Assembly: GCA_030425205.1 (NCBI GenBank)
Contig: JAUIAP010000003.1
Coordinates: forward strand, 310,001 to 374,000
From: Anaerolineae bacterium
GTDB lineage: Bacteria > Chloroflexota > Anaerolineae > Promineifilales > Promineifilaceae
DNA: 64,000 nucleotides
Reading direction: 5' to 3'
Made by a program: the position numbers and the translations under genes. Numbering within the stretch: position 1 is the first letter of the stretch; every line of letters begins with the position of its first letter. Of the stretch, positions 3,369 through 38,933 are shown one piece after another. The notes under the pieces were generated by a model. The model was not told the DNA's origin. It saw only the letters and a list, made by a program, of their open reading frames with translations, and did no database searches.

Positions 3369-6300
3369 ATGCGCCAACTCCGCTTGACCTTTCCGTTCCT
3401 AATTGCATTATTACTGTTGTTCGTGTTGCGAACAGCAACCGCTTCCCCTGCCTCGCGCTATGTAAATCTACAACTGAAAACGCTTGCCGCCGCACCGACG
3501 CTAGCAGGCGTGACGTTTCTGGAATTTATGCCCCCGCAGGGGTATTTGGTGCGCTTGCCGACGGACGCACGGGCGATTTTGGCCCATCCAGCGGTGCTTT
3601 CGGCCGATTCTATTCTCCCCCAGCAAAAAGTTAGCCCCATCCTCGCCGCCAAAACAACCCAATCTGAATTTGCTATCACGGTTGCGCCCTATCGGGATAT
3701 TGCGGCTGATAATTTAGTGCCAGAAGCTACGGGTGTGGGCATGGTGGTCGAGCGGGTTGATGAGGGGATGCTGCATGGGACGATTTCGGCCGAAAATCTA
3801 CACTCCCTCGCCGCCATTCCCGATGTGATGTGGATTCAAAACCGCGCGACATTTCAGGAGTTCAATGATGATGCGAGCTGGCTCTCCCAATCTGGCAAAC
3901 AGAATGTCACGTCGCTCTACGATAATGGCATCACGGGTATTGGTCAGGTCGGCGCCGTAGCCGATTCTGGCATGGCGGTCTTCGACTTTTTGGGTGACGG
4001 ATACCCAATGAGCCGCTTTTTCACCGATGACAGCGGCGGCCCAATTGCCGAACCGAGCCTGACCCATCGCAAAGTGTTGACCTATTACATTCCGGCTGGC
4101 GCAGATGCGGATAAGCGCGATGCGTCTGGACATGGCTCGCATGTCGTTGGCACCCTAGTTGGCGACAATGGAACGTGGCAACAACATGACCCATATGATG
4201 GGATTGCCTATGCCGCACAGGTGCACTTTCAGGATATTGGTCGCAACGCCGTCAGCCCCGAATTCCCATTGGGATTAATCAATCCCCCTGAAGATTTTGG
4301 CGATCTGTTTGCCGCAGCCTACGATCCGAACGGAGATGGCCTCTATCAGCCTGAATCGGAACCACGAACCCACAGCAACTCGTGGGGCGGCACTGAACAC
4401 GTCTACAATCTGCAAACGGCGCAGACGGATGCGTTTATGTGGAACCATCCAGACTTTTTGATCTTATACGCCGCCGGCAATCAAAATCAAGGCTCTCTCG
4501 GCGTTCCGATGGGCTATCCAGCCATCGCAAAGAACATCGTGACGGTGGGCGCGACAGAAAACGGTTTTGCCGTGCCAAACAATATGGCTTCTTTTAGTAC
4601 GCACGGCCCCGCGACGAATGGGCGGATGAAACCGACCGTCAGTGCGCCGGGCGATCGCGTGCGTTCGGTTGAGCGTGGCACAGAAAATGGAACGGTGCAT
4701 AAGAGTGGTACGAGCATGTCAACACCCGCGACGCACGCCATTGCGCTGCTGATGCGTCAATATCTGTGGGACGGTTACTATCCAACGGGTGAGCCGAACG
4801 TCGCCAATCGCATTCATCCGAGTGCCGCGCTGCTAAAGGCACTGTTGATGAACAGCGCCGTGCCGATTGACGGGCTGTACACGGACAGCCTCGTGGGCGG
4901 CAGTTGGCCGAGTAATGGACAGGGATGGGGGCGAATTTCGGCCGAAAATACCCTCTACTTTCCCGGTGATCGGCGCAATCTTTGGCTACATGACGAATAT
5001 GCGCTCGATGGGTCGGTCGGATTTGACGGCATGGGTCAAAGCCGCACCTTTACGCTGACCGTTGCCAAGGGCGATCCCTTTCCGCCCCAACCGCTGGCGA
5101 TCCATCTCGTTTGGACAGATTTTGCGAGTGCCTCTATCGCCAACGGCGCGTTGGTCAACAACTTGAATCTCGTCGTGACCGACCCATCTGGCGCAGACCA
5201 CTTTGGCAATGATCCGCTCACCAACGATTTTAACGGCGTGCCAGATTTGCCTGTTGTGCGACCCGACACGATCAATCCGTGGGAAGGGGTCTATCTCGCC
5301 AATCCAGATAGCGGCATTTACACTGTGACAGTCACGGCTGGGAATTTGGGATCGCTTGTGTTGGACAGTCGCAAACAAGGCTTTGCGCTGGTCGCATCGG
5401 CCGATTTGCAAGGAGCGGGATCACCCGTTCCCAGCACGCCGCGCATCTCTTTTGCGTATGACCATTACGACGTGGGCAGCCCACAAACCACGGTTGTGCG
5501 CGTGGTTGACTTGGCCGCCAACACCAATCACCTTGAAACAGAGATCGTTTCGGCAACCGTTGGGGGACAAGCTATCCAACTCGTTGAAACAACGTCTGAT
5601 AGCGGTGTTTTCACGGCAACGGTCACGCTCGATGAATCACTTGGGACGGTTGTGACGGCTCAATATGGCGCTGCTGCCCACGCCCAAGCCCGTCTGAACG
5701 GGATTCCAATCAATCAGATCAACCCCAGCACAGTCGCCGTCCCCACCGACACACTCGATGGACAGTTTGCGCTAAATTGGACAGTTCCCGAATCGGCCGA
5801 AAATCTCAGCCATTACGTTGTGCAGGAGACGGCGATTTTCACCCAGCCCCTGACTGAAGACGCGGAAAACGGGTTTGGCAACTGGATTTTGACCAGCGAC
5901 AATGCCGATTGGACGGTCGATGGCGCCTACAAAACGAGTGGCACGAACAGCTTTTGGTCAGGTCGGGGTGATGACTTTCAATTTGTAAATCGGTCGCTTG
6001 AGTGGATTCGGCCGATTACAATTCCCAACACCTTCACCTCCGCCCGCTTGACCTACAATAGCCGCTACTTCAACTATCTCAATGACAGCGGTTTTATCGA
6101 GATTTCGCTGGACGACGGTGCGACGTGGCAAATGGTTGAGGAAGAGTATGCGGCGACCTATGCCCAAGTGCCTGATGCGGCCCCTACAACCCGAATGCAG
6201 TTTCGTTCGATCGATTTGAGCAACTACATCGACCAACCATTCCGCCTGCGCTTCCGTTTTGACAATATGCAGGCGTCCATTGCGCCCGGCGCACCGGGCT

Positions 6301-19912: not shown

Positions 19913-19998
19913 TTATACGCGATAGTGAAGAGGCTGCATTTATTTCGGCCGAAAATTGCTATGCAGCGCAGAAACCACACCCAAAATTGGTGATTTGC

Positions 19999-20027
19999 TG
20001 GACAAATCCTGAAAATTGGGTTATACA
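19999..20027 (+). promoter_or_regulatory. Sigma-70-type promoter of the peptide/hairpin locus
   Basis: TGGACA (19999-20004), a 17-base spacer, and TATACA (20022-20027) make one of the best housekeeping promoter matches in the window. The predicted start is near 20034, a few bases before the left arm of the 32-nt inverted repeat at 20040. The transcript would therefore begin almost exactly at the enclosing stem. A TCGGCCGA palindrome lies about 50 bases upstream. Confidence 0.6.
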
Positions 20028-20093
20028 CCTTGTAATATGCTCAATTGCCAAAGAGAGATTCGCTAACAAACACTATCCTTTTAGGAGAACATC

Positions 20094-20159
20094 ATGTACG
20101 TAAAACCAGAAATTCAAAAGCACGAAGAATTGTCTCAAGTTACCTTCAGCTCTCACTAA
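20094..20159 (+). CDS. 21-residue peptide, copy 1 (RiPP/lasso-leader-like)
   Basis: ATG 20094, stop TAA 20157-20159, with a strong ribosome site AGGAG (20083-20087) six bases before the ATG. The peptide is MYVKPEIQKHEELSQVTFSS followed by His. The pattern Y-x-x-P-x-I ... L-x-x-V-T matches the spacing of lasso-peptide leader sequences (Y-x-x-P-x-L ... L-T), except that the usual Gly is replaced by His-Glu. Only four residues (FSSH) follow the conserved Thr, so a normal core is missing. It is identical in protein sequence to the copy at 20347, and all four nucleotide differences are synonymous, which is direct evidence of selection on the peptide. No RiPP modification enzyme lies in the window except a nucleotidyltransferase-family gene downstream. 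Confidence 0.75.
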   Translation: MYVKPEIQKHEELSQVTFSSH

Positions 20160-20183
20160 GCCGAAGAACACGACACTAAATTA

Positions 20184-20312
20184 GCGCGCAAGCGCACGAC
20201 TATGTAAGTAGTCACGGGGGTGCAAGCCTCCAACGAAAACGCAAGTTTTCACCGGGTACGCAAGTACTCACTGGATGTGAAAACATCCGCTAATCGATAC
20301 AAAATGTATCGA
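20184..20312 (+). repeat. Tandem array of seven small hairpins with GNRA loops
   Basis: Stem-loop positions: 20184-20195 (4-bp stem, loop GCAA), 20198-20213 (GTAA), 20216-20231 (GCAA), 20235-20250 (GCAA), 20254-20269 (GCAA), 20273-20288 (GAAA) and 20294-20312 (8-bp stem, 3-nt loop). The five central units are all 16 nt with a period of 18-19 nt. Their stems have unrelated sequences, so this is not a simple sequence repeat; what is repeated is the structure. Spacers are too short for a CRISPR array. Confidence 0.8.
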
Positions 20313-20346
20313 ACTAAAAAAGAACTTTAATCATAGGAGCATTCCC

Positions 20347-20412
20347 ATGTACGTAAAGCCAGAAATCCAAAAGCACGAAGAACTTTCTCAAGTTACCTTC
20401 AGCTCTCACTAA
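20347..20412 (+). CDS. 21-residue peptide, copy 2 (RiPP/lasso-leader-like)
   Basis: This encodes the same 21 residues as the gene at 20094. The differences are AAA/AAG (Lys), ATT/ATC (Ile) and TTG/CTT (Leu, two bases), all silent. The ribosome site AGGAG (20335-20339) lies seven bases before the ATG, in sequence context unlike that of copy 1, so both sites are independently maintained. It lies directly after the seven-hairpin array and before two further hairpins. Function is unknown. A leader for post-translational modification, a regulatory upstream peptide or a signal peptide are all possible. Confidence 0.75.
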   Translation: MYVKPEIQKHEELSQVTFSSH

Positions 20413-20515
20413 ACCGACTCTATTGATGGCATAAGCCATCCGGTAGCGTAACGCTGCCGCATAGACCGACCGTTAACTCGTTTGGTAGCGCGTCTCTCTT
20501 TGGCAATTGAGGCAG

Positions 20516-21697
20516 ATGAAAAAATCCCCATTACATGCAACGGAATCAATTTTAGATGCACTGCGCCCTGACTGGTCAGCGGCGAAGTGGCGCGCGAAGT
20601 GGCAAGACAATCTCAATTGGGATGATGTCGCCATTCGTGCAATTGTGCTGGGGCTAGCGCCTCAGCTCTATCATCGCGTCAGCGAGTGGGAACTTGACGT
20701 TCCGATCCGTGCCTTCGCCAAGCTCAAGGTCACACACGCGGCACAAGCTAAACGTGCAGACGCCATCTATGAGCAGTTGGCTGGGGTGCTGGCCGCATCT
20801 GATGCGCGGGGAATTCGGCCGATTGCGCTCAAAGGCGCACACCTTGCCGCCCACATCTATCCCGAACCCGCCCTGCGTCCAATGAACGACATCGATCTGC
20901 TGTTTGAGCCAGAACAGTTACCCAAGGCAGAGGAGATGTTGAGCGAGTTGGGGTATGGTGGGAAACATAAATCGGCCGAAACGGGCGCAGGTGTCACAAA
21001 ACACACCTCCACATTCAAGCGCGATGGCGCATCCGACAACACGCCGAACCCATACCTCTCCGCCAAAAATGATCGCATGATCGAACCGCATAACTCGATT
21101 GAGGAGTCGTGGTACGGTCTCAAAGTCAACATCACGCCGGGCATTCGTCAACGGGCAGAACTGGTTCAATTTGGCGACCAGAATTGTCGCGTCTTGGCGC
21201 GTGAAGATTTGTTGCTGCACGTCTGTGTTCACTTTTGCTTCCACCTCATCGAAGGCGCACCGTCGCTCGTCCAATTCACCGACATCATGCGCGTCACCAG
21301 TGCAGGCAACATCGACTGGCAAACGTTCACCCAACGTGCCCTCGAACGCCGCGCCGCGCCCTACGCATTGGCTGGCCTCATGCTTGCGCAAAAGCTGCTC
21401 AGCGCGCCCGTTCCCACTGACGCATTGCAACGTTTGGCAGACGCGACGCCTGCCAAACTGCGCGACCACATCGCCACGCTGGGCCTCACCGACATTCTCA
21501 AGCGCAGCCAGCAAAAACCTGTCCAAACCCTTTCTGACCGCATTAAGCGCGGCGTTGAAGATCGCGCGGCAACGGCCCAATGGTCGGCCGATTTCCGCAG
21601 CAAAATTGCCGTCTGGCGCACCCTCATCGACGTATTCAAAACGGATACGGGGCGGATGCTGCTAGGCAAAGAACGAAAAACTGTTATTAGTGGCTAG
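20516..21697 (+). CDS. Nucleotidyltransferase-fold protein of the NTP_transf_5 (PF14907) type
   Basis: About 393 residues from ATG 20516; TTG 20507 is an alternative. The hallmark is 'IRPIALKGAHLAAHIYPEPA' and then 'RPMNDIDLLFEPEQL', with the paired aspartates D-x-D of nucleotidyltransferases, then 'MLSELGY'. A helical domain with 'LAREDLLLHVCVHFCF' follows. Family members occur in some lasso-peptide clusters, beside HPr-kinase-like and PqqD-like proteins, which links this gene to the peptide genes upstream. The GAGG (20509-20512) before the ATG is mostly inside the 3' arm of the enclosing stem, so translation may depend on RNA folding. The spacing from GAGG to ATG is short (3 bases). Substrate unknown. 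Confidence 0.8.
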   Translation: MKKSPLHATESILDALRPDWSAAKWRAKWQDNLNWDDVAIRAIVLGLAPQLYHRVSEWELDVPIRAFAKLKVTHAAQAKRADAIYEQLAGVLAASDARGIRPIALKGAHLAAHIYPEPALRPMNDIDLLFEPEQLPKAEEMLSELGYGGKHKSAETGAGVTKHTSTFKRDGASDNTPNPYLSAKNDRMIEPHNSIEESWYGLKVNITPGIRQRAELVQFGDQNCRVLAREDLLLHVCVHFCFHLIEGAPSLVQFTDIMRVTSAGNIDWQTFTQRALERRAAPYALAGLMLAQKLLSAPVPTDALQRLADATPAKLRDHIATLGLTDILKRSQQKPVQTLSDRIKRGVEDRAATAQWSADFRSKIAVWRTLIDVFKTDTGRMLLGKERKTVISG

Positions 21698-21766
21698 TGA
21701 AGAGTGAAGAGTGAAGAGTGATTATTTTTATTCTCTCCACTCTCCACTCTCCACTCTCCACTCTCT
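21696..21766. repeat. Word-repeat inverted element (GTGAAGA / CACTCTC)
   Basis: Three copies of GTGAAGA are followed, after an A/T-rich loop, by four copies of CACTCTC. The two halves pair imperfectly. This is the same design as the other word-repeat hairpins but from different words. It separates the nucleotidyltransferase gene from the DUF5693 gene and has probably added spurious codons to the latter's frame. Confidence 0.6.
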
Positions 21767-21770
21767 AAAC

Positions 21771-23720
21771 TTGAAACTTTCTCGAATCCTCTCCCTCACT
21801 GCAACCGCCATTGGCACAATTGCCAGCACGAAAATACTCCAGCAACGTCACGCCCAAGAGCAACGCAACAATAAGGTTGGCATTTGTGTCGATTTTGACG
21901 ATGTGACTGTCGCCGCGTTGCGTGCGGGTATTGCGTTTGATGATCTCGTCAAGCAGCTTGTTGCCAAAGGGGCAACCCACATTTCACTGCCCGAGATGAC
22001 GCTGAACGGCTTGATCAAACGTGGCGTTTTGCAACCGATGGTGCCCGCACAGCCGCTCAGCGAAGAACCGCCGCTGGGTCAATGGGTCTATCTCTATGGC
22101 ACAAAGGCGTTTATCCCCATCATCGAAAGTGCGCTCAACTGGCGACTGCCTGAACTAAAGGGGCAGATATTGGGAGAAAACACGCTTGTTTTTGCTGGCA
22201 GCTTGCCCGCGCATGGTGATTTGGGGCTTGGTTTTGATGAGGCATTTGGCGAACATTTACAGTCACTTGGTCTCGCCGTCGTGCCGCGCCCCGTCAGTTA
22301 TGACTGGCCCGATCCCGCATTGATCGATCATGGGCTGCACTCGGCGGGGCATGTCGGCAAGCTGATCGCGTTTGAAGGGGATTGGGTGCTCGGTCATGAG
22401 ATGCAGATCAACGATACGCTCAAGGCGATGAACAACTTTGGTCTTTCGATGGCCTACTTCGCCGAATCGCGTCATCAACGCGGCGACTGGTTTATCGCCA
22501 AGGGGCGTTTGCCGCACGTCGTTCTCGCTCATCGCTTTACGCAAGAAGAGATGATGGAGATGGATTACCATTCGGCCGCGCACACATGGGTGCATCTTGC
22601 CAATGAGCGCGGTGTACGTCTCTGCTACATCAACTTTTTCCGCGTTCTGCACGCCACTGCGCCACTTGAAGGATTGGACTACGTTCACTATCTCAAACAC
22701 GCGCTTGAAGATGCGGGTTATCAATTGAGTCAGAATTTATCGGCCGATGAGGACGCCATCAAGCAGAGTGAAGCCAAGCCGCATAAACTCGCGCTCGCTG
22801 GTCTCGCGGCCGCTGGCATTGGTGCTGCTGCCATCAGCGACACGCTCAATCTGCCCGAATCGCTCGCGGTGCCGTTTGTGACAGCCGCCAGCCTTGGTGC
22901 TGCCGCGCTGCCGTTTGTCGAGCAAAAGGGGATGTTGACCCCTGCGCCACATTCGCATGGTAGTGACGGCGGGAGTGAACAGGGTCATGCCCACACCCAT
23001 TCACTGAACGGCGTTGAGGCGATTCACGCGCATGGCGGTGCTGGACACCATCATCACGGCGAAGGGGATGTGGCCCCAATGCAGACCTCTTTTGCGCCTA
23101 AGTTAATTGCGCTTGCGTCGGCCACGCTCGCCCCTGCGGCCGCCTTGACCAGCGCGCAAGGTGCTGGCTGGCTGAACTGGCTGATTGGACAAACCTATCT
23201 GGAAGCAGGTGCAGTCACACTTGCCGCTGCCACATCTGAAACAGCCTACCGTCAGCGTGTCGAAGCGTTTCGCGGCTGGGATTTAGACTGGTTTGTGCCA
23301 CTGACTGTTGCCGCGCTGCAATTTGAAAGCCCCAAAACAAAGGCGATCATGATTGCCGCATTGACGGGCGCATGGATTGCCGCGCAGCGCAATGGAGACT
23401 TGCTGAGCAAAATTGACGCACCCCACGCAGAGGCGCATACGCATCATGTTTCTGTTGCCAATCGGATTGTCGGCGATTTGTCGATGAAGCTCGGGCTGAA
23501 ACCTGCACGGAAGTGGGCTTGGGTAGGGCCGCTCGCCCTCGCATTTGCCGACGGCGAATTTACACCGTCACAGGTGGTGGGATTCGCTGGAACTGTCGCC
23601 AATACGATGGCTCTGAGTGCCTATCGTCACCCCGAACGCGCCATCAAACGCACCGCACGTGGCACCATTCCCGCATGGGTGACGGGCTACGGCTTAGGAT
23701 TTGCTGGTCGGCTCCTCTAG
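21771..23720 (+). CDS. DUF5693 family membrane protein with histidine-rich loop
   Basis: About 649 residues. The frame continues up to GTG 21711, but those codons come from a repeat. TTG 21771, just before a hydrophobic segment ('ILSLTATAIGTIAS'), is the likelier start; there is no good ribosome site. After the anchor comes a soluble domain opening 'VGICVDFDDVTVAALRAG' and 'LVAKGATHISLPEMTLNGL', typical of DUF5693. The C-terminal half has several membrane segments rich in Ala/Gly. Residues about 400-445 form a His-rich loop ('AHTHSLNGVEAIHAHGG', 'GHHHHGEG') that could bind divalent metal. In Firmicutes the family lies beside cell-surface polymer genes; here its role is unknown. Confidence 0.7.
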   Translation: MKLSRILSLTATAIGTIASTKILQQRHAQEQRNNKVGICVDFDDVTVAALRAGIAFDDLVKQLVAKGATHISLPEMTLNGLIKRGVLQPMVPAQPLSEEPPLGQWVYLYGTKAFIPIIESALNWRLPELKGQILGENTLVFAGSLPAHGDLGLGFDEAFGEHLQSLGLAVVPRPVSYDWPDPALIDHGLHSAGHVGKLIAFEGDWVLGHEMQINDTLKAMNNFGLSMAYFAESRHQRGDWFIAKGRLPHVVLAHRFTQEEMMEMDYHSAAHTWVHLANERGVRLCYINFFRVLHATAPLEGLDYVHYLKHALEDAGYQLSQNLSADEDAIKQSEAKPHKLALAGLAAAGIGAAAISDTLNLPESLAVPFVTAASLGAAALPFVEQKGMLTPAPHSHGSDGGSEQGHAHTHSLNGVEAIHAHGGAGHHHHGEGDVAPMQTSFAPKLIALASATLAPAAALTSAQGAGWLNWLIGQTYLEAGAVTLAAATSETAYRQRVEAFRGWDLDWFVPLTVAALQFESPKTKAIMIAALTGAWIAAQRNGDLLSKIDAPHAEAHTHHVSVANRIVGDLSMKLGLKPARKWAWVGPLALAFADGEFTPSQVVGFAGTVANTMALSAYRHPERAIKRTARGTIPAWVTGYGLGFAGRLL

Positions 23721-38659: not shown

Positions 38660-38720
38660 AATGCTAATGGTCGTGTTCATCTCCCTACGTTAAACTAAAT
38701 GCATCAACTAAATAATTTAA

Positions 38721-38848
38721 CCTTCGGGGCAGGGTGAAATTCCCGATCGGCAGTGATAGTCTGCGAGCGTGACCGATTCCATAATTGCGGTCGTGCAGGA
38801 GATGGTGAAATTCCATCGCCGACAGTTATAGTCTGGATGGGAGAAGGT
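38721..38848 (+). promoter_or_regulatory. FMN riboswitch (RFN element)
   Basis: Conserved FMN-aptamer blocks appear in order: CTTCGGGGCAGGGTGAAATT, GATCGGCAGTGATAGTCTGCG, a variable arm, GGAGATGGTGAAATTCC (near-universal core), GCCGACAGTTATAGTCTGG and GGGAGAAGG (quoted in parts). FMN binding normally switches off riboflavin genes. It lies upstream of ribD-ribE-ribBA-ribH and is followed by three hairpins before the ribD ATG. Confidence 0.95.
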
Positions 38849-38933
38849 TTTGGCGATTTATGATTTTGGATTGTCGCATTTCGATTGCATTGCAGTCAAA
38901 ATGTGATGAATGCCATTGTTGTATAACGTGATG

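Follow-up and report, generated by a model that had tools for sequence, protein, structure and literature searches.

A conserved complementary stem enclosing a short peptide gene ahead of nucleotidyltransferase-like genes in Anaerolineae and related Chloroflexota

In ribosomal RNA precursors (pre-rRNA), long complementary ends close a folded RNA into a stem, which is cut by RNase III. Among short precursor peptides, PqqA, from which pyrroloquinoline quinone is made, is similar in length to the peptide described here, has Lys-Pro near its start, is conserved throughout and serves a single purpose. Other known systems come close in other respects. In the operon of microcin C, a terminator hairpin between mccA and mccB leaves the precursor message in excess, as described in PMC6495379. 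Homologues of HPr kinase phosphorylate the C-terminal serine of lasso-peptide precursors, and in the account given for pseudomycoidin, a nucleotidyltransferase then attaches sugars (PMC8498205). Here, we describe a closing stem around two short peptide genes in a stretch of 64,000 nt from an Anaerolineae bacterium (Chloroflexota; Promineifilales; Promineifilaceae; assembly GCA_030425205.1, contig JAUIAP010000003.1, positions 310,001 to 374,000, forward strand). This whole stretch is called the window, and coordinates are positions within it, position 1 being its first letter.

The element consists of the following parts:

20040..20071, + strand: 5' arm of the closing stem, 91% complementary to 20480-20511, covarying with the 3' arm over 21 distinct rows
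20083..20087, + strand: AGGAG ribosome-binding site of peptide 1, from the sequence
20094..20159, + strand: peptide gene 1, MYVKPEIQKHEELSQVTFSSH, from the translation; homologues in 22 further loci
20335..20339, + strand: AGGAG ribosome-binding site of peptide 2, from the sequence
20347..20412, + strand: peptide gene 2, with the same product MYVKPEIQKHEELSQVTFSSH, from the translation; four silent differences from gene 1
20480..20511, + strand: 3' arm of the closing stem, overlapping the first three bases of the GAGG (20509-20512) that precedes the next gene

The peptide genes have 21 codons each, an identical product and an AGGAG site apiece, and the arms are 32 nt long, with the outer 19 pairs perfect. 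All of this had been described in an earlier note on this DNA, and the sequence, its translation and an alignment of the two ends confirm it. The whole unit folds with a z-score of -10.3 (0 of 100 shuffles as good). Unlike the pre-rRNA stems, this one encloses a coding RNA, and its cutting is only proposed. As in microcin C, a very short precursor gene heads an operon with enzyme genes, with RNA structure between them; there, the gene has seven codons and the structure is a terminator (PMC6495379), whereas here a long-range stem encloses the whole gene. The Downstream-peptide/yfr6 RNA is likewise a structured RNA tied to a conserved short open reading frame (ORF), but it is described as a motif of cyanobacterial 5' untranslated regions with the ORF outside the structure (PMC2864571), while here the ORF is enclosed.

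The peptide was found in 23 loci of 22 genomes, with a length of 21 to 23 residues and the pattern Y-x-K-P-x3-K-[HQ]-x2-L-x2-[VI]-T-F-S-x-H. One locus (L085) is cut inside the peptide and was left out, which gives 22 readable loci. Twin copies are present in five of them, and a single copy in the other 17. Four of the five twin pairs differ, by 22 bases in all, every change being silent; the two genes of the fifth are identical. These silent-only differences indicate that the peptide is translated and kept, and the sequences support a conserved translated product.

For each locus, up to 120 nt before the peptide were compared with up to 420 nt after it, using plain DNA scoring. Every one of the 22 readable loci has complementary arms around the gene or gene pair; in each, the arms outscore all 200 shuffles made from that locus, and they contain 19 to 36 Watson-Crick pairs. 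Of 4000 random placements with the same geometry, some of them overlapping, 13 reach the weakest of these arm pairs. In the stem alignment (21 distinct rows and 22 pairs, 462 cells), 92.6% of the cells are paired, versus 71.3% in shuffled alignments. Changes on both sides are seen in 21 of the 22 aligned base pairs and in 112 cells, versus 31, a level reached by none of 500 shuffles. When the arm alignment is slid by one to three columns, pairing falls to 40-50%. The rows were picked for complementarity, and the related sequences are not independent; hence, the evidence lies in the size of the excess and not in the count. One row (L042) was shifted one base by hand. The stem stays constant while the loop varies from 142 to 408 nt and the distance to the next gene also varies, as insulation would allow. 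We have hardly any doubt that the RNA stem is real and selected. At the gathering score, Rfam gave no match in the window's element or in the elements of the nine relatives scanned, where the two hits are both tRNA genes outside the element. Literature searches, mostly returning short listings, found no description of this peptide or stem.

Near-perfect inverted arms would also be kept matched by inversion or gene conversion, if the repeat were the ends of a mobile element or an invertible segment. An inverted repeat kept at the DNA level should give about equal numbers of A.C and G.U mismatches. The stem has 33 G.U versus 8 A.C (p 5.6e-5), or 25 versus 8 (p 0.002) when four close relatives are dropped; per locus, 14 favour G.U, 2 favour A.C and 6 tie. 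This excess speaks against a DNA-level repeat and points to RNA. Furthermore, the peptide has the same orientation as a gene of the PF14907 type in all 21 loci where both are called. A role as DNA is therefore highly improbable, and judging from the covariation and the mismatches, the stem very probably functions as coding-strand RNA. A mobile element was also considered as a candidate and rejected: the whole unit has no second copy in its own genome (next match E 0.14). Plasmid records gave no match to the unit at blastn sensitivity.

In 16 of the 22 loci, promoter-like sites are found no more than 170 nt ahead of the 5' arm, whereas single-base shuffles would give 2.8; transcription of the arms is therefore expected. 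The other six loci have no such site. A scan of the window between 19850 and 20700 gave one site on the + strand, ending at 19926. The promoter placed by the earlier note about 6 nt before the left end corresponds to TGGACA-17-TATACA at 19999-20027 (start near 20034), which fits that position, but it fails the scan rule for the last base of the -10 and is weaker than had been stated. In another locus (L075), two tRNA genes (5326-5407 and 5662-5734, -) precede the element on the same strand as the peptide, and the nearer one ends about 40 nt before the 5' arm. This element may share the transcript of the adjoining tRNA genes.

A transcription terminator between the precursor and enzyme genes would serve the same need for substrate excess, as does the terminator hairpin of microcin C operons (PMC6495379). 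Terminator-like sites, however, occur in 2 of the 22 loci versus 1.8 expected, none of them in the window. As a hairpin with a T run between precursor and enzyme gene is no commoner than chance, this candidate was dropped, and we consider it very improbable, even if the loop of L045 contains a GC-rich hairpin followed by seven T, which looks terminator-like by eye and was missed by the scan rule.

When 59 genomes (the window's own and those of 58 relatives) were searched at the DNA level, four relatives had a match to the peptide region at E <= 4e-6, the remaining matches being mostly at chance level. With the peptide as query, 8 of 52 genomes of the window's family were found, and a profile search of the class found 16 of 396 genomes, among them a ninth family genome (G019), whose peptide is cut by a contig end. 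A scan of named genomes gave ten loci, nine of which were already among those found, with L063 as the new one. These ten belong to Anaerolineae, Anaerolineaceae, Ardenticatenaceae, Caldilineales or plain Chloroflexi/Chloroflexota, and the other peptide loci were assigned to Chloroflexota by kinship with them. A phylum-wide search with a wider peptide alignment matched 1 of 400 genomes, the window's own; the 21 of these genomes that are listed all belong to the window's class, and absence from other classes is only weakly tested.

Downstream of the 3' arm, the window contains two genes of families that recur beside the peptide:

20516..21697, + strand: PF14907 NTP_transf_5 (nucleotidyltransferase-like) gene; the mechanical ORF start is 20507
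21711..23720, + strand: DUF5693 gene (PF18949); the same family lies downstream in relatives

The ATG of the first gene (20516) is four bases past the 3' arm. When proteins are clustered, the gene that comes first after the 3' arm falls into the PF14907 cluster in 17 of the 22 loci. In four loci (L074, L075, L076 and L078), a B12 radical-SAM gene comes first and PF14907 second, and in L073 the contig ends before the first gene can be called. Pfam was run on three of the PF14907 first genes (window, L042 and L081) and on one radical-SAM protein (L077). In relatives, DUF5693, FGE-sulfatase, a second PF14907 protein, parts of an ABC transporter, glycosyltransferases, an amine-oxidase-like protein and a Polysacc_synt protein are also found near the peptide; of these families, only PF14907 and DUF5693 are present in the window. 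A kinase-like gene lies upstream on the other strand in six loci; the one of L042 has no Pfam match and matches HprK_rel_A below the cut-off of that family. The genome of the window has a homologue of this kinase (43% identity) on another contig (C69; L142, 9493-14142), where the adjoining genes have matches, ordered alike, beside the peptide in L043 and L048: a membrane protein (flippase-like by eye) and a PF14907-type gene. A peptide search of this genome found no copy at L142. Its radical-SAM proteins match those of the relatives at 26-30%, and its FGE-like pieces at 36-55%. An orthologue of the PF14907 protein is present in 9 of the 52 family genomes, namely all 8 with the peptide and G030, where the orthologue is partial (residues 199-390) and no peptide was found; in G019, no orthologue was found. 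In L063, a 12-pair hairpin, CCTCCGAGTGTC...GACACTCGGAGG, can be seen by eye between the 3' arm and the enzyme start. Farther along the window, an FMN riboswitch (RF00050, 106 bits) is located at 38716-38852 (+).

These neighbouring enzymes fit a precursor of the type known from ribosomally synthesized and post-translationally modified peptides (RiPPs), which the earlier note had proposed as one possibility: a short translated gene, as the silent twin differences indicate, stands beside modifying enzyme genes in relatives. Enzymes of related kinds occur at several peptide loci, like those of the phosphoglycosylated lasso peptides such as pseudomycoidin (PMC8498205). Unlike lasso peptides, however, the peptide has 21-23 residues and almost no variable core, and no lasso protease or cyclase is present among the genes scanned, a scan that did not cover every neighbour. 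The resemblance to PqqA is by eye only; the single radical-SAM protein scanned belongs to the B12-binding kind and does not resemble PqqE. Since HPr-kinase homologues and a nucleotidyltransferase act in this way on lasso precursors, the Ser-Ser-His end would by analogy be the likely target.

We propose that folding of the transcript closes an RNA stem about the peptide gene, and that this stem likely sets the peptide message apart from the downstream enzyme genes, probably through cutting by an RNase III-type or another nuclease, or through plain insulation. The small substrate would thereby outnumber the enzymes modifying it. The peptide would be a RiPP-like precursor, modified near its Ser-Ser-His end by the kinase, the nucleotidyltransferase and glycosyltransferases. 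In 8 of the 9 readable loci of the window's family, the stem near the enzyme start would also lower translation of the enzyme. An RNase III above the family cut-off is encoded in the window's own genome. The conservation of the peptide, the arms with their covariation, the G.U bias and the adjoining PF14907-type gene are observed. We infer that the stem exists in vivo and is either cut or an obstacle to read-through translation, and that the peptide is RiPP-like; insulation or processing is the function that we tentatively favour.

Several points weigh against this proposal. The stem could act uncut. Its core keeps not only pairing but letters: G12-C39 is invariant, and A11, C16, G17 and T19 are kept at 90% or more, which exceeds the needs of a generic RNase III site and possibly indicates a specific binder. 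The peptide is conserved to its last residue (T-F-S-x-H), so the division into leader and variable core expected of a RiPP is not seen, and for this reason it is termed RiPP-like only. No fold is common to the inner loops of the 22 loci, some of which fold no better than shuffles. Finally, the window's copy has none of the kinase, radical-SAM, FGE-sulfatase and transporter genes of the relatives next to it.

The core letters conserved beyond pairing would suit a stem that binds one particular protein, perhaps the nucleotidyltransferase or kinase encoded nearby, either for feedback control or to keep the nascent peptide close to its enzyme. Among the clustered genes downstream, the first is of the PF14907 type in 17 loci and radical-SAM in 4, which would agree with such a partner. 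No RNA-binding domain, however, was called in the enzymes scanned, and we know of no such RNA in the lasso-peptide clusters with nucleotidyltransferases. These enzymes also serve lasso-peptide clusters (PMC8498205), and we regard a protein site of this kind as unlikely.

The stem could also be a translational shut-off, in which the 3' arm closes the start region of the first enzyme and leaves the peptide start open, perhaps until a signal or ribosomes within the loop release it. In 8 of the 9 readable family loci, no more than 17 nt lie between the end of the stem and the enzyme start, and by eye most of these loci lack a clear Shine-Dalgarno sequence. Closing of the enzyme start is thus seen in the window's family, but mostly not outside it. 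Accessibility was modelled for 16 loci, the other six of the 22 being left out as their start codon is uncertain. When the 5' arm is included, the predicted accessibility of the enzyme start falls by more than 0.05 in nine of these, while that of the peptide start is nearly unchanged on average (0.51 vs. 0.49). The drop, however, exceeds 0.2 in only three of the 16 loci and is absent in seven. Moreover, in the four radical-SAM-first loci, 11-75 nt separate the stem from the gene, some of which have their own Shine-Dalgarno site. Because of these small or absent drops and this spacing, shut-off cannot be the function common to all loci, and we find it rather doubtful as an explanation of the stem. 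Insulation or processing remains the reading we prefer.

The loop of the window's element contains a series of hairpins:

20184..20195, + strand: hairpin 1, four pairs, GCAA loop (fold and hairpin scan)
20198..20288, + strand: five 16-nt hairpins, each with six pairs and a GNRA loop, starts 18-19 nt apart
20295..20311, + strand: hairpin 7, with an A-rich loop, not GNRA (fold and hairpin scan)
20425..20459, + strand: two more hairpins 3' of peptide 2 (20425-20440 and 20441-20459), missing from the list of the earlier note

The seven hairpins between the genes had been reported before, and the hairpin scan recovers them. The five of 16 nt lie at 20198-20213, 20216-20231, 20235-20250, 20254-20269 and 20273-20288, with starts spaced 18, 19, 19 and 19 nt and GNRA in all loops. 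The array region alone folds with z = -6.9 (0 of 200 shuffles as good), and of the 12 six-pair GNRA hairpins that the + strand of the 64 kb contains, five belong to this array. Among the five units, 100% of the cells are paired (0 of 500 shuffles), and five of the six pairs are changed on both sides (reached by 14 of 500 shuffles). Thus, the statement that stem letters vary with pairing kept is true within the array. Selection on the structure, which was claimed along with it, is borne out across the class for the closing stem by covariation and is only possible for the array, which may be selected in its own right or may have arisen as copies that then diverged.

The twin genes and the periodic GNRA array had been taken as the defining layout of the system. 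This did not survive the comparison: six-pair GNRA hairpins number zero in each of the 21 homologous loops, versus five in the window's, and most loci have a single peptide gene. The earlier note had named homologues that keep the peptide without the hairpins as the finding that would speak against it, and all 21 homologues are of this kind. They keep the peptide and the covarying closing stem, but not the hairpin period that had been expected with them. The observation itself and its reading as RNA hold. The emphasis on the array was wrong; the conserved feature is the stem around the peptide gene, and the GNRA array is the window's own elaboration and not essential. The pattern GCAAG-N13..15-GCAAG-N13..15-GCAAG, which requires GCAAG and therefore misses arrays with other loops, occurs in 12 of the 52 family genomes; among the 30 places examined as loci, only the window's has six-pair GNRA hairpins (five, the other 29 having none). 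In G025 (contig C78, 50380-50496), a tandem repeat of ~20 nt contains GCAAG...CTTGC palindromes. Folding of the inner regions of the 22 loci ranges from z = -4.8 to +1.9 (60 shuffles each), some being strongly but differently folded. A long stretch near GTAGCCGGTCATTTGCC is similar between the loops of L081 and L082 and may be another structured RNA of that lineage. We interpret the window's array as a lineage-specific means of packing or protecting the loop that the stem encloses. A more far-reaching reading, a class-wide RNA architecture in which the modifying enzymes recognise the closed message of their own peptide substrate, with translation and modification both occurring on a single RNA scaffold and the array supplying additional docking or packing hairpins, appears quite unlikely.

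If the proposed reading is true, an RNA element absent from Rfam marks a family of precursor peptides found in 22 genomes, and the stem together with the T-F-S-x-H peptide could serve in searches for further clusters of this kind. The locus would then be a test case for how operons with a short peptide adjust substrate relative to enzyme in the absence of a terminator.
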